Positions 6,818 to 51,911 of a stretch of DNA of 53,235 nucleotides are shown one piece after another. The position numbers and the translations under genes were made by a program. Under the pieces are notes generated by a model that saw nothing but the letters and a program-made list of their open reading frames with translations, ran no database searches and had not been told where the DNA came from. Every line of letters starts with the position of its first letter. The first letter of the stretch is position 1. This DNA is from a virus: the IMG/VR virus record IMGVR_UViG_3300025083_000044, positions 1 through 53,235 of that record; one strand, 5' to 3'.

Positions 6818-7000
6818 ATGGCTAAAAATATAAAAGTAGACAAAAACAAACTATCATACAGCAACAAAGGAACTGTCCCTTCTAAAAATAATGAAGGCAC
6901 TTTCTCTGCTGACGCTTCGCCAAAGCCAGGAATGGGTAAAGGCAAAGCTAGAGGTATGGGCGCTGCTGAGTTCGGCGGTAAGTTTTCTGGCATTTATTAA
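6818..7000 (+). CDS. Small basic Gly-rich hypothetical protein, 60 aa
   Basis: A short protein between portal and co-chaperonin that shares its stop with the next start (TAATG at 7000). It is Lys/Gly-rich with a C-terminal GMGKGKARGMGAAEFGGKF. It could be a minor virion or scaffold-associated protein. No family was recognised. Confidence 0.6.
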   Translation: MAKNIKVDKNKLSYSNKGTVPSKNNEGTFSADASPKPGMGKGKARGMGAAEFGGKFSGIY

Positions 7001-7212: not shown

Positions 7213-7681
7213 CCATATTGCAGCTGAATTAGAAAACGACAAAGCCGCAGAAACAAAAGCAGAAGAAAACAAATCTGAAGTTGACAAAGCTTTTGTCAGC
7301 GCAGAAGAACGTGTTTTAGATCCTACCTTGGTTGATAAAACCTTAATAGAAAGAATGCCTAGTCCTACTGGATGGAGAATGTTGATTCTTCCTTACAGAG
7401 GCAGAGGTGTATCTAAGGGTGGAATTGTATTAACAAAAGAATCAGTTGACAGAGAAGCTTTGGCCTCAGTAGTCGCGTATGTGATTAAAATGGGCCCGCT
7501 CTGTTATAAAGACAAAGACAAATTTGGAGACACACCTTGGTGTGAAGAGAAGCAATGGGTGCTAATTGGTCGGTATGCTGGAGCTCGCTTTAAGTTAGGC
7601 GATGATGCAGAATGCCGTATTATTAACGACGACGAAGTTATCGCGACCATTCAAGATCCCGATGATATCGTCACGCTGTAA
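7184..7681 (+). CDS. GroES-like co-chaperonin
   Basis: This is a probable phage co-chaperonin that would cap host GroEL during capsid folding. The GroES-like fold spans about residues 58-158: a first strand GWRMLILP, a mobile loop rich in Gly (YRGRGVSKGGIVLTKE, about 71-86), then SVVAYVIKMGP, where cellular GroES has GEVVAVGPG. WVLIGRYAGARFKLGDDAECRIINDDEVIATI (126-156) parallels the C-terminal strands of GroES. An acidic N-terminal extension of about 55 residues and a Cys-flanked insert (107-120) are extra. Placement between portal and scaffold/capsid matches a capsid-folding role, as for T4 gp31. It overlaps the preceding gene by 29 bases. Confidence 0.85.
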   Translation: MTKNKVLVPDHIAAELENDKAAETKAEENKSEVDKAFVSAEERVLDPTLVDKTLIERMPSPTGWRMLILPYRGRGVSKGGIVLTKESVDREALASVVAYVIKMGPLCYKDKDKFGDTPWCEEKQWVLIGRYAGARFKLGDDAECRIINDDEVIATIQDPDDIVTL

Positions 7682-15389: not shown

Positions 15390-16073
15390 ATGAGCAGTCC
15401 TTTAACATTATCAGAATTAAAAACTTTAATTCAAGATTTTTCAGAAAACTCTGAAACAACTTTTGTTAATACTTTAGATGATATTATTAAAAATGCAGAA
15501 GAAAGAATATTTGAATTAGTTCAGTTTGATTATTTTAGAAGAAATGTTCAAGGATCTATGACAGCTGGCTCTAGGTTTTTAACAGCACCAGATGATTTTG
15601 AATTGTCTTTTTCTCTTGCATGTATAGATAGTACAGGTAAATATTATTATCTTGATAAAAAACATCCGAGTTTTATGCAAGAATATACTCCAGATCCAAC
15701 AGATTCAGGATCAAGAGGTCTTCCTTTATATTATGGTGACTTTGACAAAAACTTAAATACTGGAACAAAAGAATCAACACTAATCATTGCTCCAGTTCCA
15801 GATCAAAATTATACAACTGAGCTACACTATTTATATAAACCTAACTCTTTAGTTACAGATACAACAGGGACTTGGATGTCAGAACATGCAAGAAATGGGT
15901 TATTATACGCATGTCTAGTTGAGGCTTATATTTTTATGAAAGGCGATGCTGATATGATGAAACTATACGAAGATAGATTTCAACAAGAAATGGCAAGATT
16001 AAAAAATAAAGCAGAGGCAAGAGGAAGAAGAGACGAATACAGATATGATTCGTTGAGAACACAGATTACTTAG
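15390..16073 (+). CDS. Phage adaptor / head-tail joining protein, 227 aa
   Basis: The N-terminus LTLSELKTLIQDFSENSETTFV (residues 5-26) leads into TLDDIIKNAEERIFELVQFDYFRR and a beta-rich middle. A C-terminal helix follows (ARNGLLYACLVEAYIFMKGDADMMKLYEDRFQQEMARL). This organisation is that of phage adaptor proteins, which resemble T7 gp11 and related neck proteins. It follows the gp4-like and cupredoxin genes. The precise place in the neck is inferred. Confidence 0.75.
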   Translation: MSSPLTLSELKTLIQDFSENSETTFVNTLDDIIKNAEERIFELVQFDYFRRNVQGSMTAGSRFLTAPDDFELSFSLACIDSTGKYYYLDKKHPSFMQEYTPDPTDSGSRGLPLYYGDFDKNLNTGTKESTLIIAPVPDQNYTTELHYLYKPNSLVTDTTGTWMSEHARNGLLYACLVEAYIFMKGDADMMKLYEDRFQQEMARLKNKAEARGRRDEYRYDSLRTQIT

Positions 16074-22759: not shown

Positions 22760-23202
22760 TGTATGAGTATAGTTGCCAGGTCACTAGGGTGGTTGATGGC
22801 GACACTATTGACGCTGATCTGGATCTCGGTTTTAATATTCATCATAAGTGTCGCGTACGTTTATACGGTATTGACACTCCCGAGTCGAGAACTCGCGACA
22901 AAGACGAAAAGGCTAGAGGTAAGATAGCTGCTAAGTTTTTACAAGACGCCATATCAAATGGCAAGCACGTCATCTTACAGACGCAATTAAAAGACTCTAA
23001 AGGTAAATTCGGTAGAGTTTTGGCATCAGTTATCGTAGATGGAATAGATATTAACCAGCAAATGATTGAAAAATATATGGCGGTTAAATATACAGGCCAA
23101 AGCAAGCAGGATATTAAATTAGAGCATATGAATAATAGAGCTAAATTAATTGAACTAGGAGTTTATAAGCCAAATGGACAAGGAGCAGCAACATCACGAT
23201 AA
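22759..23202 (+). CDS. Staphylococcal nuclease-like (SNase/thermonuclease) protein
   Basis: It is predicted to be a calcium-dependent phosphodiesterase cutting DNA or RNA. The 147 residues contain the OB-fold and conserved positions: VVDGDTI (Asp13, Asp15), RLYGIDTPESR (Arg34, Asp39, Thr40, Glu42) and GKFGR with Arg86. These correspond to the SNase calcium ligands and catalytic arginines. No signal peptide is present, so it acts inside the cell or in the virion. The next gene starts 29 bases inside its C-terminus. Confidence 0.88.
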   Translation: MYEYSCQVTRVVDGDTIDADLDLGFNIHHKCRVRLYGIDTPESRTRDKDEKARGKIAAKFLQDAISNGKHVILQTQLKDSKGKFGRVLASVIVDGIDINQQMIEKYMAVKYTGQSKQDIKLEHMNNRAKLIELGVYKPNGQGAATSR

Positions 23203-24280
23203 AATAATAGCTTGGTCGGCTATTGGGTTTTTAGTAACTTTAGTTATTGGTTTATCTGTAAATGTTAGCGCTCAGTCCTCTCAACAGTCTGGTACAGCTT
23301 GCGTCAACGGATCTCAGTATTGCGAAAACAATAGTTTGGATACAGTCAATACGACTACAACCACAAATACCAACACGAACACCAACACCAATCAAAACAC
23401 TAATACGAATACCAATACTAATTCTAATACCAACGTATCGACTAATACGAATAATTCGACTAATACAAATTCCAATACGAATGTTTCGACTAATTCAAAT
23501 ACAAATGTAAATACTTCGACCTCGAATAACACTAATACGAATAACAACGTCAATACTTCGACATCTAACTCAACGGTTAATTCAACCGTTAATCAAAATG
23601 TTAACAATACTAATAACTCGACTTCGACTAGCTCTAATACAAATCAAAACACCAATATTAATCAATCGACTTCAGATTCTAACGTCAAAACTGACAACAG
23701 AAACGTAAACGAAAATAATACTAAATCTGATAATACAAACCGAAATATTAACGAATCTAATTCTACTCAAACAATTAATCAAAACGTCAAGAGCAAGGCT
23801 CCTCCAGCGTCTGCAATAGCCCCAAGCATTATGTCCTATTCGCAAGATCTTTGTACTGTAGGCCGCTCTGGTGCGTTCCAGGGACAAGTATTTGGCTTCT
23901 CTACAGGAGCTACTGTTACTGACGAAAACTGCGAACGGTTAAAACTATCTAAGTATCTTTACGATACTGGTATGAAAGTAGCCAGCGTTAGTATTCTTTG
24001 CCAAGACGAAAGGGTGTTTAAAGCTATGGAAATGGCTGGTACTCCTTGTCCTTACAGAGGCAAAATAGGAGCAGAAGCAACTTTAGCTTGGGCTGAAAAT
24101 AAATCTAAAAGACCAGATGTTAAAGATCAAGAAAAGTTATTCATACAAAAATGTACACACGATTCAAACCCCAACAGAGAAAAAATAAATAAAGATGTTG
24201 TTGGCGCAGTTAAAGTTATATATACAAGAAAAACTAAAACCAACAAACAATGCCGAAACGAATTCTATGCTACGCAGTAG
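23174..24280 (+). CDS. Membrane-anchored or exported Asn/Thr-repeat protein, 368 aa
   Basis: An N-terminal hydrophobic segment (IIAWSAIGFLVTLVIGLSVNVSA, about residues 11-33) is probably a signal peptide or anchor, with a possible cleavage after VSA. Residues 57-205 are almost only Asn and Thr/Ser in a TN-TN pattern of low complexity. The C-terminal 160 residues form a globular Cys-containing domain (PSIMSYSQDLCTVGRSGAFQGQVFGFSTGATV, then CERLKLS) with about six Cys. It starts within the SNase gene and overlaps the next gene by 31 bases. It may be an envelope-acting or surface protein made late in infection. The function is unknown. Confidence 0.7.
   Translation: MDKEQQHHDKIIAWSAIGFLVTLVIGLSVNVSAQSSQQSGTACVNGSQYCENNSLDTVNTTTTTNTNTNTNTNQNTNTNTNTNSNTNVSTNTNNSTNTNSNTNVSTNSNTNVNTSTSNNTNTNNNVNTSTSNSTVNSTVNQNVNNTNNSTSTSSNTNQNTNINQSTSDSNVKTDNRNVNENNTKSDNTNRNINESNSTQTINQNVKSKAPPASAIAPSIMSYSQDLCTVGRSGAFQGQVFGFSTGATVTDENCERLKLSKYLYDTGMKVASVSILCQDERVFKAMEMAGTPCPYRGKIGAEATLAWAENKSKRPDVKDQEKLFIQKCTHDSNPNREKINKDVVGAVKVIYTRKTKTNKQCRNEFYATQ
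23350..23790 (+). repeat. Low-complexity Asn/Thr-coding repeat
   Basis: Within the gene at 23174 the DNA consists of AATAC/AACAC/TCGAC-type units coding alternating Asn and Thr/Ser. No regular spacers are present, so it is a protein repeat and not a CRISPR array. Such tracts are prone to slippage length change. Confidence 0.85.
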
Positions 24281-26406
24281 CTAGTCTGCTATCCTTTAGT
24301 GTATATGGACAATACACTTATGAATCAGGACAAGACTTATATCACCTGCAAACAAACGCAAACAGCTTTGAAGGCGAGTTAGCTTACGAGGTAGTAGATG
24401 ATGGCATTTCTCCCGCAATTGATCTTTCTTTTAATTTTACTTTTTATGGCTCTACATTCAGCCAAGCGAGGATGGCTACTAATGGATGTCTCCATTTTGG
24501 CGCTAGTGGTAGCTACTGTAACGATTACACTCCTGACCCTATTAACGGACAGCACACCTACACTATATATGCTTTTTGGACTGACTTAATTAGGGATAAC
24601 AATTCTCGTATGAAGTCTTGGGGAGACTCAAGCAAAATGATATTTGGTTGGTATGATCTTAGAGAGTACAACAGAAGCAATACAGACAACAGCTTTGAGA
24701 TTATACTTTGGAACAACAACTCGTTTGATCTTCGTTATGGCCATCTAGATATTATTAATCATGATGTATTGATAGGAGAGGTAGGATCTAAAAAAGAAGA
24801 CTCATACACTTATTACTATCATGATGAATGCAGCACAGGTACAACCAACTCATCCTCTTGCGTCAATAAAAATTGGAATGCAACATCTATCAATACCACG
24901 CTAGAAAATGGTGGATCTTTATATGGCGCAGGTAGTGGCAACGGTATTGATTGCAGCAATCCTTTAAATGATTCTAGTTGTAGTGGTTATGCAGATGCTT
25001 TATTAACCCAACAATGTAATATAAGCTCTCTTTATAGTGAGTCATGTCCTAACTATTGGGACGCATACGATGACCAGCAATGTGATTTAGATCCTCAGTA
25101 TGGCCCTTTCTGCCCTGGATACAGACAACAAGAAGATGTAGGTTACTTTCAAGAAGATCAATTTGATTACGGTTATGAAGAAGAAGAGCAGTTTGGTTAT
25201 GAAGAAGAGCCTATATTTGAAGAGTTTGTATTTGAGTTTGATGAGCAGAACTTTGATGAACAAGAGTTTATGTTTGAAGAAGAAATAATCTTTGAAGAAA
25301 TGTTTCGTCAAGATGAGTTTGTAGATCCGTTTCCCTTAATACCAGATTTTGAAATGCCGCGTGAAGAAATATTTATCCCTGTAGAAGATTTAATTATTGA
25401 AGAGTTTATTTTTCAAGAAACATTTTTAGTAGAAGATTTTAGAGAGCCTGAAACTTTTATTGAACTAGAGACTATCGAAGAATTAGAAGAATGGTTTGAA
25501 GAAGAAACCAGAAGAGAAGAAGAGATTGCAGTATTAGAAGACCCAGAGGAAGAGTTTATAGAAGAAATTTTTGAAGAAGAAGCCGTTGAGGAGGTTTTTG
25601 AAGCTATAGAAGAAAGATTGGCTGAAGCTGAAATAGAAGAAGAAAGAATAGAAAGAGAAGAGACTATAGAAGAAGATGTATTTGAAGAAGAGTTCCAAGT
25701 TGCTGAAAGAGAAAATGTAAAAGGTGAAAGCTCAATTAGCAGAGAGGTTGCTCTTAGGGTGGTTGCATCTACAATAAGAACCGCAAATCAGAGTGTTAGC
25801 GGTACTAACGCTGGCAATTCTATACATGCTACAGGCAATAGCGTAGCTGCTGGAAATGCCGTAAGTAACTCATCTACCGCTGGTTTTAGTACCAGTAGTT
25901 CACCTAGCATGTCAGATCAGTTTGCATCATCTACAGCTCAAACCAATCAAGTTCTTGATATGAGCAGTATGTCTATATCAAATTCTTCTTTTGGTTCAAC
26001 AGCAGAAACAGAAACGGTAACAGCAGAGGTAGCAGTTGCTAACGTAACAACAGAAAAAACGCAAGATCAGATAGATACGTCTATTGCATCTGTTGATTCT
26101 GATTCAGAAACTACCGTTGAAAATATTATTGCTCAAAACCTACAAACAGCTCAAGAGCAAGTTGCGGCCCAACAAGAAGAAACTGGAGAATATGGCTCAG
26201 AAAACGCTATTATAGAGGTTATGGGCTTTTTGCCAGGTTTTAATAGTTACAGAGCAGTAAACATACCCGAAAAAGAATTTTGGTATGAACCAAAAAGCAT
26301 TTATACTAATAGCAACCTTTCAGATAATACTGCGGCTTTTTATGGGCTAGCAGGACAGAGTATAAAAACTTTGACTGAATTAAAACAAATGCAGCCAACT
26401 CTTTAG
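24250..26406 (+). CDS. Exported NIDO-like, Cys-repeat, Glu/Phe-rich protein, 718 aa
   Basis: A clear signal peptide lies at residues 1-20 (basic start, hydrophobic core, ending VYG). Residues 40-170 resemble an extracellular nidogen (NIDO) domain: FNFTFYGSTFSQARMATNG, TIYAFWTDL, FGWYDLREY and FEIILWNNNSFDLRYG. Three repeats of about 21 residues each have a Cys pair (235/244, 256/266, 278/288). Residues 300-495 are dominated by Glu and Phe, a highly charged acidic region. A Ser/Thr/Asn-rich part and a final domain follow. It could be secreted, cell-surface or virion-associated. It overlaps the previous gene by 31 bases. Confidence 0.72.
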   Translation: MPKRILCYAVASLLSFSVYGQYTYESGQDLYHLQTNANSFEGELAYEVVDDGISPAIDLSFNFTFYGSTFSQARMATNGCLHFGASGSYCNDYTPDPINGQHTYTIYAFWTDLIRDNNSRMKSWGDSSKMIFGWYDLREYNRSNTDNSFEIILWNNNSFDLRYGHLDIINHDVLIGEVGSKKEDSYTYYYHDECSTGTTNSSSCVNKNWNATSINTTLENGGSLYGAGSGNGIDCSNPLNDSSCSGYADALLTQQCNISSLYSESCPNYWDAYDDQQCDLDPQYGPFCPGYRQQEDVGYFQEDQFDYGYEEEEQFGYEEEPIFEEFVFEFDEQNFDEQEFMFEEEIIFEEMFRQDEFVDPFPLIPDFEMPREEIFIPVEDLIIEEFIFQETFLVEDFREPETFIELETIEELEEWFEEETRREEEIAVLEDPEEEFIEEIFEEEAVEEVFEAIEERLAEAEIEEERIEREETIEEDVFEEEFQVAERENVKGESSISREVALRVVASTIRTANQSVSGTNAGNSIHATGNSVAAGNAVSNSSTAGFSTSSSPSMSDQFASSTAQTNQVLDMSSMSISNSSFGSTAETETVTAEVAVANVTTEKTQDQIDTSIASVDSDSETTVENIIAQNLQTAQEQVAAQQEETGEYGSENAIIEVMGFLPGFNSYRAVNIPEKEFWYEPKSIYTNSNLSDNTAAFYGLAGQSIKTLTELKQMQPTL

Positions 26407-33137: not shown

Positions 33138-34667
33138 ATGAATGTATTACAAAGAAAAATGTTTGCAACAGGAGATGTTGCCACCAACCCTTTTGTTGAT
33201 TCGTATGACGAGTTTCAACCGTATGAATTAGATTTTAATATTGAGCCAAAAGGCGAAGGATATGTAGCTATTCAAAGAAATCCAAGAGGAGAGGTGGTCA
33301 AGGAAACCCCAATCAATCTTGCTCTTTCTGCTAAAAGAGATCCTGTTGAGGCTTTTCAAGTGCAAACAAAAAACGAGGGTTTAAGGGCTGTCAAAGAAGC
33401 AGGTTTAGGAATTGCAGGTTTAGCTGGGGGAAGAGGTGCTTTAACATATGCTGGCAAAAAAATTGCTCCATATATTACTCAAGCAGTTACTTCAAATAGA
33501 TTTTTAAATCCTTTTACTTCAGTTAAAAAACCTGGAGTAGCAGTACCTGGAAAGAAAGGGTTTCAAAGCTTAGACCCAACAAAACTTTCATCTTTTAACG
33601 TAGGTATAAAACCTGGCGCTAAATATGGTTTTTTAGGAGCATTAGGTTTTGGCGGTTTAACAGCGGCTCAAACAACTGAAGAAGAAGTTGCCGAAGAATT
33701 AAAAAAGTTAGAAGAAAAAAGCTCTACAGAAACACAAGAGAAAAAAGATAAAGTAGCGCCCGATCCATATATGGGTGGTATTTCAGATGAAGAGATAGAC
33801 GCTGTTATTGGAGCTGATACAGATGCTGTTACAGAAGCAATGGCGAAAGCTGATTACGACGTAGAATATGCTGAAACAGTAAGAGACTCAATAACTGATT
33901 TTCAAGATCGTTATATGGACAATAAAAATATGGATAGATTCCTTAGAAATATTGGCAAAAGTCTTGTTGAAGAAGGCAGATTTACTGGAATTGCAACAGG
34001 TGCTGTAGCTGCGGCCGACGAAAGAGAAGCTGAAAGAATCTTGGAAGCAGAAAGAGAAGCTGATATAAGTTTAGCAAGCGCCAAAGCAGGATTGAAGGAC
34101 AAACCAAGCTCAAAAGTTATTACTGATTATAAAATAGATTTGGCAGCTTCTGCAGCAGATGTTGAGCAATCTGAATTAACAGGTCAACTATTAGACCAAG
34201 TTGAAGGGATTATTACAACAAAAGACATTACGGGCTTTTCCCCAATATTACAAAGCGTTTATAAAAAAGCGTTAGGTTTTGCAGGCGTTCAAAGCCCTCT
34301 TGATCCAAGAGAAAGAGCAATTGTTTTATTAGAACAAATTGCTAACGGAAATATCAAAACCATTACAGGCGAAAGCGGAAGAACAATTTCAAACGTAGAT
34401 AGGCAAATAGCTCAAAAACTTATTGGAGATTTAAAAAATCCATTGACAAGAGAGGATGAAATTTTAGGAAATTTAAGATCTCAGCAAATTAATGTTTCCC
34501 AAAGAAGAAATGCTGCTTTTAGTAAATATAGAGTTCTTGCTGAGTTTTTCCAAGAGCAAGGATTGCCAGTTCCTGTTGGAATACAAGGCTATGACACATC
34601 TTCTATATTTGGTCAAAAAGGATCTAAAGTTATTACTTTAGACATGGATGGAAATAAAATATCGTGA
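33138..34667 (+). CDS. Putative internal virion/ejection protein 3, 509 aa
   Basis: Residues 80-165 contain a Gly/Ala/Leu-rich amphipathic or membrane-active segment (AGLGIAGLAGGRGALTYAGKKIAPYITQAV). The rest is charged helix and loop (EEEVAEELKKLEEKSSTETQEKKDK, then ADEREAERILEAEREADIS). It is coupled to the next gene by a GTGA overlap. Together with its neighbours it resembles the ejection-protein block of podoviruses. Confidence 0.6.
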   Translation: MNVLQRKMFATGDVATNPFVDSYDEFQPYELDFNIEPKGEGYVAIQRNPRGEVVKETPINLALSAKRDPVEAFQVQTKNEGLRAVKEAGLGIAGLAGGRGALTYAGKKIAPYITQAVTSNRFLNPFTSVKKPGVAVPGKKGFQSLDPTKLSSFNVGIKPGAKYGFLGALGFGGLTAAQTTEEEVAEELKKLEEKSSTETQEKKDKVAPDPYMGGISDEEIDAVIGADTDAVTEAMAKADYDVEYAETVRDSITDFQDRYMDNKNMDRFLRNIGKSLVEEGRFTGIATGAVAAADEREAERILEAEREADISLASAKAGLKDKPSSKVITDYKIDLAASAADVEQSELTGQLLDQVEGIITTKDITGFSPILQSVYKKALGFAGVQSPLDPRERAIVLLEQIANGNIKTITGESGRTISNVDRQIAQKLIGDLKNPLTREDEILGNLRSQQINVSQRRNAAFSKYRVLAEFFQEQGLPVPVGIQGYDTSSIFGQKGSKVITLDMDGNKIS

Positions 34668-37600
34668 TATACAAAATAAAGACTCCTGATGGAAGATTTA
34701 TTGAAGTCGAGGGAGAAGAAGGTCAAGAAGCAAAAGCTATAGAGGCCGTTAGAAAATATCTAGCAAACGAAACTGTATCTAGCGATTTTGACGCAGAAAA
34801 TTTTGATTATCAAACAGGTGTAGACGCACCAGGTTTACGAGCTCAGCTAGACTTAGCTGAAACAGTTGAAGAAAAAGAACTTGTTTTAACCAATAGAGTT
34901 GGTAGCCAAGGCTTTACTAGGGATTCATCTGGAAACTTTGCGCTTACGCCAAGTGGTTTAAAAAGACTTGGTATAAGAGGTGGTAGCGATAAAAACATTA
35001 TTATTGATGAGTCAGGTCTTGCTAAAGGAGACTTTGCGGATTTGGCTGGAATTGTTGGCCCTATCGCAGGTGCTGTTGCTGCCTTGTCACCACATGGCAG
35101 AGCTTTAAGATTATTAAAAAATGTTTTTAAGAATGACAGAATATCTAGAACTGTTGCATCTGCTCTTGGTACAGCTGGTGGTAAAGGTGTTGAAGAGGCT
35201 GGAGAGTTGGCTGTTGGATTGCAAAGACAATCTGCTGGCGAAGTAGCAGAAGATTTAGCGTATGAAGCGGCAATAGGTGGTATATCTCAAGGTTTATTTG
35301 AGGTGGGTGGTATGGCTTTGCATGGTCTTCTAGGTAGAAAAGCACCAATTATAGATGTAGATATATCTAGAGCTATTGCTCAAGGTGCAGATCCTTCAGA
35401 GTTAGTAACCTTGGCAAAAAATTTAGGCAGAACTCCTACATTTAAAGATGTACAAGAAGCTCAAAAAAATAAAATTATCGAAACATTTACTCCTGCAGCA
35501 GTATCTCAAAGAGCTTTAGGTAGATCTATTCCAGGTCGAGTTCAAGCAGCGGCCGAAACTGTATTTGGTAGAAAGGAAAGAGATGAAAAATTAATTGAAT
35601 ATGGCAACCAAAGACTGCAAAAATTTTTAGAAAAATTAAACGCTCAAGATTTAACTTTAGAAAACTTTGAAGCTGGAATAACCGCAGGAAGATTAACAAG
35701 CGCTCAAGTAGATGATTATATAAAAAATCTTTCTAGAGACTCAGATGTTGCTAATAAAGAGCTGAGAGAAGTTATTAATAATTCTGTTAAAGCTATTGAT
35801 GAGGGTGCTTTTTCGGGCAGCCCAGATTCAGCAGCAACTGGAAGATTGATAAGAGATCAATTAAAAGAAGCCTACGAACAGGGTGTAATTAAACCATTCC
35901 AAAGAAGAGAAAGAAATATTGATACTTTTTTACAAAAAAAAGGATTGGATGCAGTATATGGACAAATAGGAATTAAATTAAATAGTTTAGAAAGATATGT
36001 AGATAACTTGGTTAAAAAAAATCCAACCATAGACAAAATATTGGCAGATGAAATATCTGCATCCCCCATAAAAGTTATTAAGGATGTTATTAAAGAAGCT
36101 AAAAAAGATGGGGGAGGCCTATCAATAGAAGCTTTAAATAGCGTGCGAGGAGCTTTGCTAACAATTGACAGAGCTAAAGGAGCTTTCTCTGGTAAACAAG
36201 GATACTATTTAAAACAAACCTTAGATGAAATAGATAAAATATTTGACGATTTAGCAAGCGGAAATAGTTTTGTTGCAGATATGATAAAAGTTGGTCCAAG
36301 AAGACAGCAAAAAGCTGCAATTAAAAATGTAACCAAAGCAGCTCAAATGATTAGAGGCTACAACGCAGATTATAAAGCAGCAGTTCAAGCATTTAACGAT
36401 CCTGTTATTGCTAAAATTACACATGATGCGGCTAGAGGTGCTTTTGACGTAGATACAATTTTTAATCAAGTTGTTAAAAATAATAGACCAGAATTAATTA
36501 ATAAAGTTATAAACGCTTTGCCTAGCGAAGCTGAAAAAAAACTTGTTCTAGAAGGATTAAGGGAAAACATTATTAAAAACGCAGTTAGAGATTCTATAGA
36601 TATAACAACCAATGAAATAAATCCTGTATTCTTTGCTAAACATTTTGGAAAACTTGGTAGTACCGCAGACGTTATATTTAAAGACATACCAAATTTTAAA
36701 AGCACAATAGATGATTTTTTAAAAATTAATACTAACTTTAAGGCTGAAAAATTAGCTAGAATATCAGCAGATTTAAACTCTAAAGAATTTACCCAAGCTT
36801 TAAAAAGATTTACTGACGCTGAAAATGAACTCGCGATAGCAAACTCAGACAGATTTTTAACTAGAGTGTCTAGCGCAAGTCCAGATGAGGTGGTTGGAAC
36901 TTTGTTTAGAAATGGCCAAGCAGAAAATATTTCTAAAATGAAAAAAATATTAGAAAACGATCCAGATACATTTCAAAAAATTCAACAAGAAGGCATGCGT
37001 GATTTGATGAGGTTAACTTCTGGACCTGGTACAAGAGTAGATGAGGTATTTGATCCGAATGCTTTAGAGAGAGCTTTAAACTCTAAGGGCGATAACGTCC
37101 TTAATGAAATGTTTGGCAAAGAAACCACTCAAAGTTTAAGAGCCTTAGTTAGAGATTTAAGAGTAATGACAGAACCAGAAAAAGGTGGAGCTGGTACTTT
37201 AATTGCTGGAGCAATTGCTGTTAACGCTTTTAATCTAGCAATGCTACCGACTGTAGCAAAATTAGGAGTTATTGGTATGGTTATGAGACAACCATCGGTT
37301 GTTAGAAAATTAGCTAAATCAGACGCTGAAAGTGTGAATGTTGTTTATCAAGCTTTTAAAGATGCTGTTAGATTATACGCTCCAATGCAACTAACTGGAG
37401 ATGTAGTTGGGGGTCTTAGAGATGTTGGATCAGTCGCAGCTGAAGAAATAAGTCAACTAACCGAAGACTCTAATCTAGGAGCCATATCACAACAATTAGG
37501 CACAGAACTTCAAACCACAAATCGCACACTCCCTAGACTTCCAAATTTAACAACATCCGCACAATTGCCACAAGTACAACCTGTTGCAGGCGGGATTATG

Positions 37601-38685: not shown

Positions 38686-38899
38686 TGATCTCTCCCTTTT
38701 TAAATACAATACGAACACAATACTTGCGAACAATCGCAACAAGCGTAAATACTGTTGTTTGAATAACAGAGGTGGTTAACAAACTGGCATTAAAATAATT
38801 GCACATGTTAAGAACAAAAAAAGATAAAGGCAAAGCTATTACAACGCCAACAGCTACATCGCTAAGACTTTCTTTTAAAGCGCGTCTATCAATCTTCAT
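38678..38899 (-). CDS. Small two-helix membrane protein, DUF7220-like, 73 aa
   Basis: The likely start is ATG 38899, inside the end of the primase gene by 11 bases. Two hydrophobic helices are separated by polar residues (VAVGVVIALPLSFFVLNM and SVIQTTVFTLVAIVRKYCVRIVF). The C-terminal pattern FTLVAIVRKYCVRIVF resembles the DUF7220 membrane family of phages. The function is unknown. It is coupled to the next gene by an eight-base overlap. Confidence 0.62.
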   Translation of the reverse strand: MKIDRRALKESLSDVAVGVVIALPLSFFVLNMCNYFNASLLTTSVIQTTVFTLVAIVRKYCVRIVFKKGEING

Positions 38900-41012
38900 T
38901 AAAAAATTCTGGATCAATCGCAACAATACGTTTTGTTGGCCGCCCAGTTCCTTTTGCCCTTAAATCTTTTTCTTGTATCTCCCCTGAGTTTTTTAATCTC
39001 TCTATAATTTCTTTAACTTCGTATGACTTCATTGATCTGAATATTTCACGTCGATCAATATCACGCTTACTTATACCCCAATCTCCTTGCGATCTAATAA
39101 AGCTAAGTATCTGTTTGATACGGCCTTCCATTTCAGATCCCGCAACCTTGTCTTTACAATTCTCTATTAGCAACTGATCGTAGTAATAGACATAATCTAT
39201 CGCCCATTGAGTTATATCGCCTTTAATTGTTTTGGCTTTCCTATCATCTGCAAGCGCTCCAATCAAAGCTAAACGCATTGCTTTTTCTCTTGTTCTAGAC
39301 AATAAAACCTCAAGCCCTTCTTTCTCCAAAGCATTTTGCTGATCTACTAATTTGTATGCCAAGCTGTCCAACAAAGCATTTGAATCATCATCAAACTTTA
39401 TAATTCTTTGTTTAAAATCTAACTCAGCATTGTCTCTAGATATCTGTTCCATTTCGTTGTCAACCTGTCTTACATGTGAAACCCAGTTGTATGTTGATTG
39501 AGGAGGCTCAACGAAAGCTACCATTTTGCCGACAGTTCTTGGCACGTGAGATTCAACAACAATAAATCTATTTAAAAATCCGTCAACAATACGACCTGTT
39601 GATAAAGCGCCATAAAAGTTTTTAGGCACACTCATACCGACCAAAGTGATTGCGGGTTTAATTGTTGATCTATCTAAAACTTCTTTTTGTTGTTTATTGG
39701 TTAGAGTCATCATTGAATAGTTATCTGGTCTTAAAACACCATGACATCTTCCCCAAGTCTCCATAAGAATTTGTAATGCGTCTTCTTTGTTTGAGTTAGA
39801 AGATTTAGATATGCTTTCCAATCTTTTACCAAACTCATCCATAACAGTTATATGAGTTGGTTTATATCTAAGTAAGCTGTAGATAGCTCCGCTTGATGTA
39901 TAGCCGTCTCCCGCCATTAAATCGCTATGCTCTGCATGATCTAAAATAGTTTCAACAACTGTCTTGACATTTTCCTTGCCTTGTCCCGACTTAGCAATAC
40001 ACATAAAAAACAAAGATGAAAAGTTATTCATATTGGTTCTATACATTCTTCCTAAAGCTACCGAGCCTAAAGATAATGCTGCTTGCATACTAATGGCTGG
40101 CTGAGATATGTGCGCTATCTTTTCTGAGTATTCATAAATGTCTTTTAATACACCAGGCGGAGAATAAAGATTAGCTGGCTCTTTTACTGTTTTGGTTGTT
40201 GATATATAAGCAGGTGCTTGTTGGTTTTTTCTGTCATGAGTTTTTTGAACTGAATTAACTGTTGTTGATATTTCACTTGCTGATAAAGGTGGAGAGTTTT
40301 GTTCGTTCCAAGACTGCACAAAGAACTCTGTAAAATCTGTATTTAAACCTTTAGCTATTAAATAACCCGCCAGTCTTGCCGCTTGATCGTTACGGCCGCC
40401 CTCAGAAACACCTTGAATAGATAAAGGTGTAGAGATTGGTTTGCCGTTGAGTTTCTCAACCCCAGTTATCTTCACCCATAATTCTTGAGTTAAGTTTGGT
40501 AAATCATCAACATCATTTAAATCCCAATCTTCAATTCTTGTAGGGGTATATATAGCTCCTGTTGCATGGATATTATGCGGAGCAACAATCAAACCACCCA
40601 CACCTCTAATATCAATAAGCTTGGCTGGATCATAGCCTTCAGTTCTTTTGGCTACCCAAGTAGTAAAATTTTCTGGATTGTTGTAATAATAATGAACCCC
40701 CTTACCTGTTGCTACTTTAAAAGGTGTTACTGGTAAGTTGGCCTCACACCAATTTACCGCTTCGGGTGTATCTGCATCTATAACAATAAACTTGCCACAG
40801 ACTAAAGCGACGACTAGATCATCTCGCCCCTTAAACCATTTCTCTATTTCTTCCGTCGTCGGCTGTCGCTCTTGGAATTTTTGCCACCCCCCTAATTCTT
40901 TGGGCGGAACTTTATTATGCCTATGGAGAGGTACTACACTTATCCCATATTCTGCATAAGCCAGAGCTAAGTCCAACGCAGAGTCTTGCGCTGTTACTTG
41001 TAAATTGAACAC
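38889..41012 (-). CDS. Bifunctional primase (PrimPol) - helicase (DUF3987)
   Basis: This is predicted to prime and unwind DNA at the replication fork. Residues 12-165 form an archaeo-eukaryotic primase (PrimPol, PF09250-like) with IVIDAD (Asp79, Asp81), GVHYYY (His107) and LIDIRGVGGLIVAP (Asp134). A PriCT-like segment follows (GGRNDQAARLAGYLIAKGL, about 210-230). Residues 290-600 match DUF3987 helicases, with a Walker A variant AKSGQGKENVK. The start is GTG at 41012, two bases after the HTH gene stop. No DNA polymerase was found nearby, so the host enzyme is likely used. Confidence 0.82.
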   Translation of the reverse strand: MFNLQVTAQDSALDLALAYAEYGISVVPLHRHNKVPPKELGGWQKFQERQPTTEEIEKWFKGRDDLVVALVCGKFIVIDADTPEAVNWCEANLPVTPFKVATGKGVHYYYNNPENFTTWVAKRTEGYDPAKLIDIRGVGGLIVAPHNIHATGAIYTPTRIEDWDLNDVDDLPNLTQELWVKITGVEKLNGKPISTPLSIQGVSEGGRNDQAARLAGYLIAKGLNTDFTEFFVQSWNEQNSPPLSASEISTTVNSVQKTHDRKNQQAPAYISTTKTVKEPANLYSPPGVLKDIYEYSEKIAHISQPAISMQAALSLGSVALGRMYRTNMNNFSSLFFMCIAKSGQGKENVKTVVETILDHAEHSDLMAGDGYTSSGAIYSLLRYKPTHITVMDEFGKRLESISKSSNSNKEDALQILMETWGRCHGVLRPDNYSMMTLTNKQQKEVLDRSTIKPAITLVGMSVPKNFYGALSTGRIVDGFLNRFIVVESHVPRTVGKMVAFVEPPQSTYNWVSHVRQVDNEMEQISRDNAELDFKQRIIKFDDDSNALLDSLAYKLVDQQNALEKEGLEVLLSRTREKAMRLALIGALADDRKAKTIKGDITQWAIDYVYYYDQLLIENCKDKVAGSEMEGRIKQILSFIRSQGDWGISKRDIDRREIFRSMKSYEVKEIIERLKNSGEIQEKDLRAKGTGRPTKRIVAIDPEFFNED

Positions 41013-41014
41013 TC

Positions 41015-41350
41015 TTAACTTTCACTAGTTTCTTCAATAGGACCAAAAATGGATTCAAAATCTAACTTACCGCCAGAAGCTTTAATAATTTTTTTTGCCT
41101 GTTTAATAGAAGGTTGTCTAAGGCCATACCTCCACGCTTTAGTTGACGCTGCTGAACAATCAAACAGCTCCGCAGCTGGCTCTGTACCAATAAATTCTAT
41201 GTACTTCTTCAAAGTTATTCTTTGCACTTCTCTCTCCTTATATTGTGGTTCTAGATTTTTTTTCTTAAATGATTTAAGCTCTTCTTCGGTAAGACTTTTT
41301 AACCGCCATAGGTAGTTTACCTTCCATTGATTTCGGTCTACTTCTCTCAT
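41015..41350 (-). CDS. Helix-turn-helix transcriptional regulator, 111 aa
   Basis: I prefer the ATG at 41350, where ACGGA lies about eight bases upstream, over the earlier GTG. The C-terminal half (TEPAAELFDCSAASTKAWRYGLRQPSIKQAKKIIKA, about residues 57-91) has the spacing of a Cro/CI- or YdaS-type helix-turn-helix. It lies between divergent operons and may repress or activate one or both. No dimer domain or protease-cleavage motif is visible. Confidence 0.7.
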   Translation of the reverse strand: MREVDRNQWKVNYLWRLKSLTEEELKSFKKKNLEPQYKEREVQRITLKKYIEFIGTEPAAELFDCSAASTKAWRYGLRQPSIKQAKKIIKASGGKLDFESIFGPIEETSES

Positions 41351-41442
41351 TTTACATTCCGTTAAAAAATTAATGTTCACACATTGTAATTCATATTAAA
41401 ATAAATTAAAATAGTATTTTTAAATAAAACGGAGAAGATTAA
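41351..41442. promoter_or_regulatory. Divergent promoter region of the HTH and recombinase operons
   Basis: This AT-rich 92-base interval separates the divergent genes at 41015 and 41443. On the minus strand TACAAT (41383-41388) could be a -10. On the plus strand TTCATA (41390-41395) and TAGTAT (41412-41417) are a weak pair with a 16-base spacer. Overlapping promoters next to an HTH gene are a natural regulator target. Individual elements are weak. Confidence 0.4.
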
Positions 41443-42153
41443 ATGTCTGATATTTTAAGTAGAATTGTAAGTCCTAGCGAATTGGTTGAAAATCAAGGCG
41501 CTAAGATTTTAATGTATGGAGCATCTGGAGCTGGTAAAACGACTGCATGTGCTACATCACCTGGAAAAACTTTAATCATAAGTATGGAAGCTGGTTTGTT
41601 GTCTATTAAAGATGCAAACAATGTTACTGCTATTGAGGTTAAAGAAGCTTCAGAAATAGAACAGATTGCTGAAATGCTTGAAAGCGGAGATCTTGATTAC
41701 GATACTGTCTGTTTAGATAGTGTTACCGAGATGTCTGAACTTTTATTAGCGCAAGAAAAAGCAAGGTCTAAAGATCCTCGACAAGCCTACGGAGAAGTTA
41801 TTAATGTAATGACTAGAACGATGCGTAGGTTTAGAGATCTTAAAATGCACGTTATTTTTGTTGCTAAAGAGGACAAGCTTCGAGACGAAGCAACAGGTAT
41901 GTTTCATTATCAACCAATGATGGTTGGCGCTAAACTACCTACCCAAATTCCTTACTTCTTTGATGAAGTGTTGTGTCTTAGGACTTTCACCGAAGAAAAT
42001 GATGAAGGGAAAAAAGTAACCAATCGTTGGTTGCAAACAGTTCTTGGGGATAATTACATCGCTAAGGATAGGAGTGGCAAGCTAGATTCTTTTGAAGAAC
42101 CTAACTTGACATATATTATTAATAAACTTGGATTTTCAAAAGGAGAAAAATAA
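41443..42153 (+). CDS. Sak4-like RecA-fold recombination ATPase
   Basis: This is predicted to anneal or exchange single strands. The 236 residues carry Walker A GASGAGKTT (26-34) and Walker B YDTVCLDSVTE, with a RecA-like fold (AAA_24/PF13479 group). The length matches Sak4-type phage recombinases. AGGAGA-type signals precede the ATG, and its stop overlaps the start of a DUF669 SSB-like protein, the usual Sak4 partner. Confidence 0.85.
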   Translation: MSDILSRIVSPSELVENQGAKILMYGASGAGKTTACATSPGKTLIISMEAGLLSIKDANNVTAIEVKEASEIEQIAEMLESGDLDYDTVCLDSVTEMSELLLAQEKARSKDPRQAYGEVINVMTRTMRRFRDLKMHVIFVAKEDKLRDEATGMFHYQPMMVGAKLPTQIPYFFDEVLCLRTFTEENDEGKKVTNRWLQTVLGDNYIAKDRSGKLDSFEEPNLTYIINKLGFSKGEK

Positions 42154-42665
42154 TGAGCGATTTTGCAGACGTCAAGTTTGATTTTGAATCTGGTGGTAGT
42201 GGTGAATCTACTATTCCAGAAGGGGACTATTTAACAGAGATAAGCAAATGCGAGAAGACTACTTCTAGCAATGGCAACGACTATCTTGCGTTAGAGGTCA
42301 AAGTATGTGGTGAAAAATACAAAGGCTGGATTGCTAGAGACAATCTAAACCTTTGGTACAAAAATAGCGACGCTGAAAAGCAAGAAATGGTTAGAGAGAT
42401 AGCCTCTAGGAAATTCTCTGGCTTGGTCAAAGCGTTAGGCAGAAAAGACAACCCACCCGCTAATGGTGGCGAGCTGGTTGGTAACAAAGTGATTTGTACT
42501 TTTGGCATTGAGAAAAGTAAAAATCCTGACTATCCCGACGATAAAAACAATATCAAGGGTTTCAAGCCGTTGGAAAAGATGTCGCCTAAACAAGCAGACG
42601 ACACCCCAGCTTGGGTAACAGAAGGAACTTCTGAAGCCAAAGCTCCAGCTAAACCAAGCTTGTAA
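42153..42665 (+). CDS. DUF669-family ssDNA-binding protein
   Basis: The sequence FDFESGG, then TIPEGDYLTEISKCEKTTSSNGNDYLALEVKV, GEKYKGWIARDNLNLWY and LVGNKVICTFGIEKS has the hallmarks of DUF669 (PF05037), proteins regarded as phage SSB-like. The C-terminus is charged and Pro/Ala-rich, perhaps an SSB-type tail. It is directly coupled to the Sak4-like gene, supporting a joint recombination or replication function. Confidence 0.8.
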   Translation: MSDFADVKFDFESGGSGESTIPEGDYLTEISKCEKTTSSNGNDYLALEVKVCGEKYKGWIARDNLNLWYKNSDAEKQEMVREIASRKFSGLVKALGRKDNPPANGGELVGNKVICTFGIEKSKNPDYPDDKNNIKGFKPLEKMSPKQADDTPAWVTEGTSEAKAPAKPSL

Positions 42666-45278: not shown

Positions 45279-46892
45279 TTACCTATCTGCATAAATATGA
45301 TTAACGATATTAGGGAACTTGCCCGAATAATCGACTTTAATTAAATCTGGTTTGTTAACTTCTGTTTGTCTAAACAAAGCTTCATCTACTGTAGAGGGTG
45401 GGGATCTTCGCAAGCTATCACCACTTACCATTTTGTTCCACCAAGCCACAGCTTTCTCTCTTGCATAACCCGAATGCTCAAAGCAGATGTACTCACTAAT
45501 AATCTTATTGGGTGTCTTGTAGCTGACCTTTAATACAGGCAACGGCTTGCCTTGTTTCTGATGATTGCCAAACCACATGTTTATAACCTTGGTATCGTAG
45601 CGTTCTTTTTTGGCTGTCTTAGAAATAATATCTAACTTAGATGCAACCAGCTCTAGCTCTAGCTTACGCATAGGATAGACATAGCCACAATCAGGGCAAG
45701 TGGTTACAGCTTTAGGTACATATGATTGGCATTCTGGACAGCTCTTGACCAAAGCCTCGCCTGTTTTTTTGCGCTTGCCTTTTTGGTTGGGCGCTATTTG
45801 ATTGATAGGGCCATGACGTTCAATATTCTTGGCAAAGTCTAAAATCAAACAATCTTTCTTGCCCTCTGCTATACGCATGCCTCTACCCATCATTTGCACA
45901 TATAAGCCTGGTGAATGTGTAGGTCGCAGCATTATAATTAAATCTGTATTTGGCGCATCAAAACCTGTTGTTAACACATCGCAATTAACCAAAGCTCTAA
46001 TCTTGCCAGCTTTATAATCTGTTATTAGCTGATCTCTTTCGTTTTGATTTGTATCTCCTGTTACCACGCGAGAGGTTATATTGTTGGCATTTAAAATACC
46101 GCTGACCATTTCCGCATGATTGATACCAGCACAAAAGATTAACCATTGTTTTCTGTTTGCGCCTTTGATTAAAACTTCTTGCATGGCTTTGTTGGTTCGG
46201 CCGCTATCGTTCATCTTGGCCTGCAAATCTGTTTGAATAAACTCACCCCCTCTCAAACCTATATCATCAATCTCGTACTCAGTATCCATACATTTAGTTA
46301 CTAGAGGTGATAAGTAGCCGTCATCAATCAGCCGAATAAAGTTATCACCACTACCAAAGTCTATTGCGACATCATCAAAGATATATCCCTCGCCTTCAGT
46401 CAACATACCAGAGTTAAGTCTGTATGGAGTAGCCGTAAAGCCAACCACACGTAAATTTGGGTTGCGTTCTTTAAGGGCGACAACGAGGGAGCGGTACATT
46501 CCCTCGCCGTCTTTTGGAACAAGATGCGCTTCATCAATAGCGAGAAGATCGAATAAGGGCAGTTGATCTACCTTGTTCCAAACTGATTGAAGCTGAGCAT
46601 AGATAATATCGTTATCTGTATCTCGACTCTTTAAGCTGTTGCCATACAAACCTATATCTCCATAAGGCCAAGCGTCTTGTAGCTTTTCATAATTTTGAAA
46701 AAGTATTTCTTTAACATGCGAAACAATTAAAGTTTTTTGTTTTTTTTGTTCATTCATATGCAGCACAAAGTCTGCAATCACATGAGACTTACCAGAGCCT
46801 GTTGGCATAACAACCAAAGGATTGCCGTCCTCTATAGCAATATAATTTTCTAAAGCATCTAGAGCTTCTTGTTGGTAATCTCTTAACGGCAT
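45279..46892 (-). CDS. SF2 (DEAH-type) DNA helicase with zinc ribbon
   Basis: Probable ATP-dependent DNA unwinding or translocation. Visible motifs are I PTGSGKS (30-36), II DEAH (120-123), III TAT (153-155), V/VI VLTTGFDAPNTD and QMMGRGMR (333-340). A C-terminal zinc ribbon has C385, C388, C399 and C402. The length of 537 and order resemble phage RecQ/UvsW/type III-like helicases. Replication, recombination or origin remodelling are likely roles. It is separated from a Lys-rich peptide gene by zero bases. Confidence 0.88.
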   Translation of the reverse strand: MPLRDYQQEALDALENYIAIEDGNPLVVMPTGSGKSHVIADFVLHMNEQKKQKTLIVSHVKEILFQNYEKLQDAWPYGDIGLYGNSLKSRDTDNDIIYAQLQSVWNKVDQLPLFDLLAIDEAHLVPKDGEGMYRSLVVALKERNPNLRVVGFTATPYRLNSGMLTEGEGYIFDDVAIDFGSGDNFIRLIDDGYLSPLVTKCMDTEYEIDDIGLRGGEFIQTDLQAKMNDSGRTNKAMQEVLIKGANRKQWLIFCAGINHAEMVSGILNANNITSRVVTGDTNQNERDQLITDYKAGKIRALVNCDVLTTGFDAPNTDLIIMLRPTHSPGLYVQMMGRGMRIAEGKKDCLILDFAKNIERHGPINQIAPNQKGKRKKTGEALVKSCPECQSYVPKAVTTCPDCGYVYPMRKLELELVASKLDIISKTAKKERYDTKVINMWFGNHQKQGKPLPVLKVSYKTPNKIISEYICFEHSGYAREKAVAWWNKMVSGDSLRRSPPSTVDEALFRQTEVNKPDLIKVDYSGKFPNIVNHIYADR

Positions 46893-50500: not shown

Positions 50501-50776
50501 ATGAAGATAATTAAAATGGAGAAGGGCCCACCCACAATCGAAGAAGGTCGACGCAGACTCGATACACTCTTTGAAGATTTTATTTCCAGAGGAGCTGACG
50601 CAGAATTTGTTGCCTTACTTATCTTTACTTACGGCGTAACCGAAACTCTGAATTACGCGCAATCGGTCGAAGAAGGCGTTAGAAAGATCGACGATATTCT
50701 AAATGCAGAGTTTGGAATGGAGAAAGAAATCGTCTTTACTCCCGAGTTCTTAACAGAAGAAAAAGATCCCGAATAG
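50501..50776 (+). CDS. Hypothetical acidic helical protein, 91 aa
   Basis: Starts MKIIKMEKGPPTIEEGRRRLDTLFEDFISRG; a downstream ATG five codons in is an alternative. The rest is acidic helix. It ends next to the repeat array. The function is unknown. Confidence 0.6.
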   Translation: MKIIKMEKGPPTIEEGRRRLDTLFEDFISRGADAEFVALLIFTYGVTETLNYAQSVEEGVRKIDDILNAEFGMEKEIVFTPEFLTEEKDPE

Positions 50777-51106
50777 TTTTGTCATAAAACTTTGACAAAA
50801 GTACCCCCTTTTGGGTCGATTTTGGCTGGAATTGGCTTAGTTTTGTCAGAGTGTCAGAAGTCTCTGACAGCTGGAAAGGTGATAGTAGTAGGGTTTAGGC
50901 GTTTTGTCATATTGTCAAGACACCCCTTAAATAACCCTTATATTTACCTCATAATCGTAAAATAAAGGGGGGAGTAAAGAAAAGTATGACAAAAGTATAT
51001 ATATAGGTATAAATATAATAAAATATATATAATTATTTACTGTATTAGTAGTACTTTGAGAGGTATTGATAGTTTTGTCAGAGTTTTGTCAAGAGCTCTG
51101 ACAAAA
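50777..51106. repeat. TTTTGTCA/TGACAAAA iteron-like array
   Basis: Exact octamers TTTTGTCA at 50777, 50841, 50902, 51073 and 51084, and TGACAAAA at 50793, 50987 and 51099 (eight copies in 330 bases), plus GTCAGA/TCTGAC variants at about 50846-50870. Pairs form perfect inverted repeats (50777/50793 and 51084/51099). It lies in a non-coding stretch of about 340 bases upstream of the small gene at 51119 and the probable small terminase. Candidate origin, packaging site or operator array. Confidence 0.8.
50995..51058. other. Extremely AT-rich tract within the repeat array
   Basis: Nearly uninterrupted A/T between two clusters of the octamer. It could melt easily like a DNA-unwinding element of an origin, or position a bend at a packaging site. 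Confidence 0.6.
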
Positions 51107-51118
51107 GTAGGAGAAGAT

Positions 51119-51274
51119 GTGTATAAATTAGTAAAGAAATGTCGGGAAGTTTTACCGCCAGAAGTTATAGATTTGCTAGAAAGACCAGATGTAGTAGAAT
51201 TAGTTAGGTATTTTAACGGACGATTAATCAGTTATAAGGTAGCAGATGAGCAAAAACCCAGAAAGGAGACTTAG
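51119..51274 (+). CDS. Small helical protein upstream of small terminase, 51 aa
   Basis: GTG start at 51119 with AGGAGA at 51109-51114; the longer frame would start with TTG inside the repeats and is unlikely. It contains YKLVKKCREVLPPEVIDLLERPDVVELVRYF. It overlaps the next gene by 29 bases. It may aid packaging or bind the repeat array, but no family is known. Confidence 0.55.
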   Translation: MYKLVKKCREVLPPEVIDLLERPDVVELVRYFNGRLISYKVADEQKPRKET

Positions 51275-51911
51275 AAAAGGTATTAAGGTTGAGCCTACAC
51301 TTGAAGATGTAGATGATATGCCTATTGAATACGCCAACTTGCATGAAAAAAATCTAACTAAGCGACAGCGTTTGTTAGTTTGGAATGCAGTTAACGATCC
51401 CACGCTTTCATTTACGGAAGCTGCAAAGAAGGCAGGGTTTAAAAATCCAATAGTTGTTAGTCGGTACATGACTCCTGACGGAAAATATGCTCACGTACGT
51501 CGGGAATATGAAAGACTGATGATCGAGGCCAAGAAGAAGTTTGAACTGACACATGAGAAAGCTGTTGAAGATTTGTATAAATTAAGAGATGACGCCTGGG
51601 CGCAGGGAAATTTTACGGCCGCCATTAACGCTCAGAACTTACTTTTGAAAGTCGGGGGTTTAATCGTTGATCGTCGGGAAGTCTTGCATGGGAAAGTAGA
51701 TCAAATGAGTCGGGGAGAAGTTGAAAGACGTCTGGCTGATTTATTAGGCAAACAAGCTATTGAGCATAAGTCGGGAATTGAGATCGAGGACAAGTCGGGA
51801 TCTGAAGAAGTCGGGGAAATTGTCGGGGAAGAACCCATTGAAGATAAAGGGCCAGAAAAAAAACAAGTTAGACCTATCCCTAAAGCAGCCGAAGAAGAAG
51901 ACGAGGATTAG
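51246..51911 (+). CDS. terS: Terminase small subunit (predicted)
   Basis: It would recognise phage DNA and recruit the large terminase. Residues 36-76 are HTH-like (NLTKRQRLLVWNAVND, FTEAAKKAGFKNPIVVSRYM), as in small terminases. Then comes a helical oligomerisation region (RREYERLMIEAKKKF, EKAVEDLYKLRDDAWAQGNFTAAINAQNLLLKVGGL, about 85-140). The C-terminus is acidic and basic mixed, perhaps interacting with TerL. It lies just after the repeat array, consistent with a cos/pac-like binding site. Unlike usual, it is far from terL unless the ends of the genome are joined. Confidence 0.7.
   Translation: MSKNPERRLRKGIKVEPTLEDVDDMPIEYANLHEKNLTKRQRLLVWNAVNDPTLSFTEAAKKAGFKNPIVVSRYMTPDGKYAHVRREYERLMIEAKKKFELTHEKAVEDLYKLRDDAWAQGNFTAAINAQNLLLKVGGLIVDRREVLHGKVDQMSRGEVERRLADLLGKQAIEHKSGIEIEDKSGSEEVGEIVGEEPIEDKGPEKKQVRPIPKAAEEEDED

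Follow-up and report, generated by a model that had tools for sequence, protein, structure and literature searches.

A probable iteron-type replication origin beside a putative small terminase gene in an uncultured marine phage

An octamer array in a 342-bp intergenic gap

The DNA analyzed here is the IMG/VR virus record IMGVR_UViG_3300025083_000044, which is classed as linear; its whole stretch of 53,235 nucleotides is referred to below as the window. An intergenic gap of 342 bp, bounded by a stop codon that ends at position 50776 and by the GTG start codon at 51119, is occupied by an array (50777-51106) of eight exact TTTTGTCA/TGACAAAA octamers distributed over both strands. Read as TTTTGTCA, the sites lie on the plus strand at 50777, 50841, 50902, 51073 and 51084 and on the minus strand at 50793, 50987 and 51099. 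An earlier note on this DNA had listed eight octamers in mixed orientation just upstream of a small GTG gene, and all eight were recovered where it had placed them, with the array ending at 51106. The gene preceding the array (50501-50776, plus strand) encodes a conserved 91-aa protein with no assigned role. The GTG-initiated gene (51119-51274, plus strand) encodes 51 aa, is kept in close relatives and matches no family; it separates the array from a 221-aa plus-strand gene (51246-51911) that is probably the terminase small subunit gene, terS. Phage HTVC027P likewise carries a small gene ahead of terS. Elsewhere in the window, two neighboring frames (23174-26406) are of low complexity; one encodes a long Asn/Thr/Ser repeat (TNTNTN), and the other is rich in Glu and Phe.

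The octamers fall into two sets. The left set (50777-50994) comprises five octamers and additional TGTCA half-sites at 50852 (plus), 50865 (minus) and 50913 (plus), while the right set (51073-51106) consists of two direct octamers 11 bp apart and one inverted octamer. Between the fifth and the sixth octamer, and hence between the two sets, lies an AT-rich block (50995-51041; 93% AT over 45 bp) that is a candidate DNA-unwinding element and that contains the AT-richest 45 bp of the 53-kb window, tied with a stretch at 41383. The latter belongs to a second AT-rich spot (41381-41442; 93% AT over 45 bp), which is devoid of octamers, is situated between a divergent repressor-like gene and a Sak4 gene, and is perhaps a divergent promoter.

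Outside the array, only two octamers occur in the remaining 53 kb, so that no similar density exists elsewhere in the window. Both had been noticed before, one correctly at 7291 and the other at 15738, its true position being 15743. The earlier expectation was about 0.01 octamers per 330 bp; the rate across the whole window gives about 0.03. The octamer total of 10 compares with 5.17 expected (sd 2.3), and 5 of 100 shuffles reach 10; the total is thus unremarkable, and it is the clustering alone that is remarkable. In 60 windows simulated with a first-order Markov model, in which 8-mers of three or more different letters were counted, the densest 8-mer cluster per 330 bp held two to four copies, against eight here.

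Several other signals were considered and set aside. GC skew, taken as an origin marker, tracks gene orientation and carries no independent signal. A DnaA-dependent origin was rejected, as the one TTATACACA (51118-51126, minus strand) is found in this window only and is missing from 13 of 13 relatives checked. A stem-loop origin of the pRN1 kind was likewise set aside: the strand does fold better than its shuffles (z -4.7), but the inverted octamers alone could account for this. The array has no match in Rfam. A literature search with the octamer gave many matches, and the titles of those listed looked unrelated.

Conservation in relatives and like arrays in other viruses

With the product of the neighboring probable terS gene as query, IMG/VR yielded 80 loci. 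At least seven exact octamers (7-11) are present beside the same gene neighbor in all 71 loci with sufficient upstream DNA; in the other nine, contig edges cut the upstream region short. Conservation of the array at this neighbor, which had been proposed as a check, is therefore borne out. The register of the octamers is near-constant inside subgroups of relatives, and in some relatives the sites extend into the flanking reading frames. Across 29 distinct arrays, exact sites outnumber one-mismatch sites by 249 to 47, and the extended consensus is approximately (T/G)AG-TTTTGTCA-GA. Within the 700 bp upstream of the gene, the 45 bp with the highest AT content lie inside the array in 71 of 71 relatives, and in 60 of these 71 the block is also the AT maximum of the whole locus. 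A replication origin is favored because the repeats, in a 5 + 3 arrangement, lie to either side of the window's AT-richest 45 bp and because an AT block within the array recurs in every one of the 71 relatives.

These data also bear on the idea that the array is a product of chance, a composition artefact or a functionless tandem repeat. The genome is indeed AT-rich, and periodic tandem TGACAAAA repeats are present in three other records (L318, L342 and L369). The array nonetheless combines irregular spacing with mixed orientation, holds eight copies where simulations gave at most four, and is conserved almost perfectly in diverged relatives, which together make this explanation negligible. 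The tandem repeats of the three records, including those at 6898-6973 and 9933-9997 of L318, are built of 8-12 bp units in one orientation per block, and they were set aside as a different kind of repeat.

In order to describe like arrays in other viruses, we draw on a pattern scan of IMG/VR for three octamers, all counts from which are to be read as "at least" values. Among the matches listed, dense arrays lie mostly beside a TerS homologue, and several of those without such a homologue end at a contig edge. In viruses that do not encode this TerS, mixed-orientation TTTTGTCA arrays (at least 6-7 copies per 400 bp) are mostly located directly 3' of a primase-helicase gene; as the octamer was itself the search query, the shared sequence is partly selected, and it is the placement of the arrays that is informative. 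L095 carries nine octamers directly after a Prim-Pol gene (weak DUF3987 match), in a module that includes Sak4, DUF669 and helicase genes. The array lies directly 3' of a P4-family primase gene in L125, of a gene whose large product matches DUF5906 weakly in L122 and L178, of a Toprim-DUF3987 gene in L229, and of a D5_N-DUF5906-Pox_D5 gene in L338, L363 and L365. Two relatives of L338 that were found by protein similarity (L454 and L455) also possess both the D5_N-DUF5906-Pox_D5 protein and an array. This placement is a second reason to favor an origin. There are two exceptions: in L134, the array and the end of an unnamed gene fragment are about 700 bp apart, and in L153 (2713-3075), nine octamers together with TGACCC-type repeats precede a different terminase gene pair, on an 8.4-kb contig where a replication primase was not found.

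Other relatives found by protein similarity give a mixed picture. Clusters of other motifs lie just 3' of the gene in L457, L458, L475 and L478, beyond what simulation produced; those of L479-L481 and L460 are borderline, and L474, L476, L477 and L461 have no cluster 3' of the gene that exceeds simulation. Phages C7 and H188 show weak repeats in AT-rich gaps, and Roseobacter phage CRP-901 shows no convincing repeat array near its Prim-Pol gene in the part examined. In the genome collection, almost all pattern matches consisted of three to five scattered copies, which we took as chance, with the exceptions of L229 and of a 21-bp periodic repeat in L256.

The placement of the arrays is also relevant to a regulatory explanation, according to which the octamers would form a multi-copy operator through which a phage regulator, such as the repressor-like product of 41015-41380, controls the small gene and terS. 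The array does sit where the promoter of the terS operon is presumed to be, and the product of 41015-41380 has a weak repressor-like match (PHROG 35, E 2.5e-4). However, promoter and terminator scans revealed no excess of signals, promoter-like matches being no commoner than in shuffles (4 vs 3.3), and like arrays elsewhere lie 3' of replication genes. Eight sites spread across 330 bp around an AT block would, moreover, be unusual for an operator. We regard this function as very unlikely.

The terminase neighborhood and the replication module

The assignment of the gene downstream of the array as terS, already suggested in the earlier note, remains probable, and its support is modest. Its product is 29-32% identical to the annotated small terminases of phages HTVC027P and HTVC023P (E 3e-8 and 1e-7), but it matched no family in Pfam, PHROGs or NCBIfam. 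A low-confidence structural model displays an N-terminal helix-turn-helix and a helical hairpin, and a fold search of the PDB with this model returned nothing significant.

If the small terminase bound the octamers just upstream of its own gene, the array would be a site of packaging initiation (pac- or cosB-like). This possibility accords with the constant position of the octamer nearest to the probable terS, about 125-190 bp upstream across the family, with the array of L153 ahead of a different terminase pair, and with the five CTAGGAAA repeats that HTVC023P carries just upstream of its own terS (L084, 5776-5930), a phage whose replication genes are of another type. It loses weight because viruses that do not encode this TerS have the same octamer array alongside primase-helicase genes, and the presence of the top AT block within the array in all 71 relatives fits an origin better. 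HTVC027P, HTVC023P, 023Pt_psg01 and DSL-LC04, four phages that share the TerL lineage (59-62%), lack both the Prim-Pol and the octamer array, HTVC027P having a single isolated octamer pair far away. As these terminase relatives without Prim-Pol are also without the array, the latter appears to go with the replication module and not with the terminase, which again favors an origin. In two of the four, however, the aligned part of TerS shows only about 30% identity, and with such divergence a changed TerS site could also explain the missing array. On balance, a role in packaging alone seems unlikely. In 023Pt_psg01, seven TGGCACA repeats are grouped within 400 bp, a short distance beyond terS (L085, 13484-13880).

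The replication module of the window contains a 707-aa primase-polymerase (Prim-Pol, PriCT_1 and DUF3987 domains by Pfam and PHROGs; 38889-41012, minus strand), which we propose as the initiator. The module further includes, by PHROGs and Pfam matches, a Sak4-like ATPase (AAA_24; 41443-42153, plus strand), a DUF669 single-strand-binding-like protein (42153-42665, plus strand) and a DEAD/ResIII helicase (45279-46892, minus strand). Prim-Pol is encoded by 12 of the 14 longer records searched, among them every family record that reaches the gene; the two records without it are a 16-kb fragment and L329, which has no TerS homologue, has only a small repeat cluster and is not counted as family. The last 68 residues (640-707; 38892-39095, minus strand) are the most conserved part of the protein in nearly all family rows, typically at 88-99% identity vs 67-89% in the other parts. 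In L438, L441 and L446, this C-terminal domain is 97% identical vs 72-83% elsewhere in the protein, while L143 is an exception in which the domain does not rank first. Within an AlphaFold model whose overall confidence is low (mean pLDDT 57), the domain follows a helix-helix-helix-strand-strand order with modest local confidence, which points tentatively to a winged-helix-like fold; a fold search of the PDB with the Prim-Pol model gave no significant match. By sequence, the nearest solved relative is ORF904 of pRN1, a distant match (E 0.003). Prim-Pol is likely to be the initiator, with its conserved C-terminal domain as the putative octamer-binding part.

The earlier note had named iteron origins, packaging sites and operators as parallels without choosing among them; the comparison supports the first, and we consider it likely that 50777-51106 is an iteron-type replication origin. 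The octamers would then be iterons bound by a phage-encoded initiator, most likely through the winged-helix-like C-terminal domain of Prim-Pol. Binding at both sets, five sites on the left and three on the right in both orientations, could assemble a helicase ring, upon which the AT-rich block between the sets would melt and Prim-Pol would lay primers at the melted block, assisted by the Sak4, DUF669 and DEAD-helicase proteins. We infer Prim-Pol binding, melting of the AT block and the start of replication at the array from sequence comparison. We also thought of a combined locus for origin and late switch, in which the octamers act as iterons and in addition control terS or start packaging, thereby tying packaging to replication; such a dual role is conceivable but doubtful.

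For uncultured marine phages, the origin is rarely known. An iteron origin at this site would give a phage family with more than 100 recovered IMG/VR contigs a short origin, together with a proposed initiator domain and its 8-base target. It would also be an iteron origin among phages whose replication protein is of the Prim-Pol/DUF3987 kind; for a related class, a stem-loop has been proposed as the origin (PMC4234260). If so, genomes with modules of this kind could be examined for further origins in a simple manner, by looking for an AT block flanked by short repeats.

Comparison with known origins

The closest parallel in build is the origin of Streptococcus phage Sfi21 (NC_000872), annotated as a 302-bp non-coding element at 34487-34784. 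It has nine AGTAAC repeats in 298 bp, in both orientations and arranged 5 + 4 around a 45-bp block of 100% AT. According to a later paper, infection activates this element, which is described there as an independent origin (PMC6356513). Both elements thus consist of about 300 bp of non-coding DNA with two repeat sets, in both orientations, around an AT block, and both phages possess a module of Sak4, helicase, SSB and Prim-Pol. An origin is favored here also because this annotated origin shares the build and the kind of replication module. The two differ in that Sfi21 uses an AGTAAC repeat, that its origin lies directly 3' of a DUF5906/Pox_D5 primase-helicase gene, and that its Prim-Pol and helicase are separate proteins; origin function is reported for Sfi21 (PMC6356513), whereas that of the marine phage is deduced.

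Two further systems illustrate how such an initiator might engage its origin. The alpha protein of P4 is reported to bind origin repeats via a winged helix (PMC4234260), and a winged helix of a primase-helicase acting on origin repeats, known for P4 from this description, is what we propose here too; the primase of P4 is of the Toprim type, whereas the marine phage has an archaeo-eukaryotic Prim-Pol. ORF904 of pRN1 is similar in joining a Prim-Pol and a helicase to a C-terminal winged helix, but the pRN1 origin is a stem-loop 3' of the gene and is without iterons (PMC4234260). The polymerase of phage NrS-1 is likewise a phage Prim-Pol whose priming needs an 8-nt template sequence (PMC7102993; PMC8718748); this sequence, TTTGGTTA, occurs in only two genome copies and marks where priming takes place, in contrast to an array of iterons.

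What speaks against an origin is the location of the array, which differs from that in Sfi21, in the islands and next to the primase-helicase genes of other viruses. The origins of PICI and SaPI islands lie immediately 3' of the initiator gene, whereas the present array is about 10 kb from the Prim-Pol gene and beside terS, the comparison with these islands being one of position. Because the array does not lie 3' of its proposed initiator gene, we claim no membership in the P4, PICI or Sfi21 types; it is in its presumed working that the array resembles P4-, island- and Sfi21-type origins.
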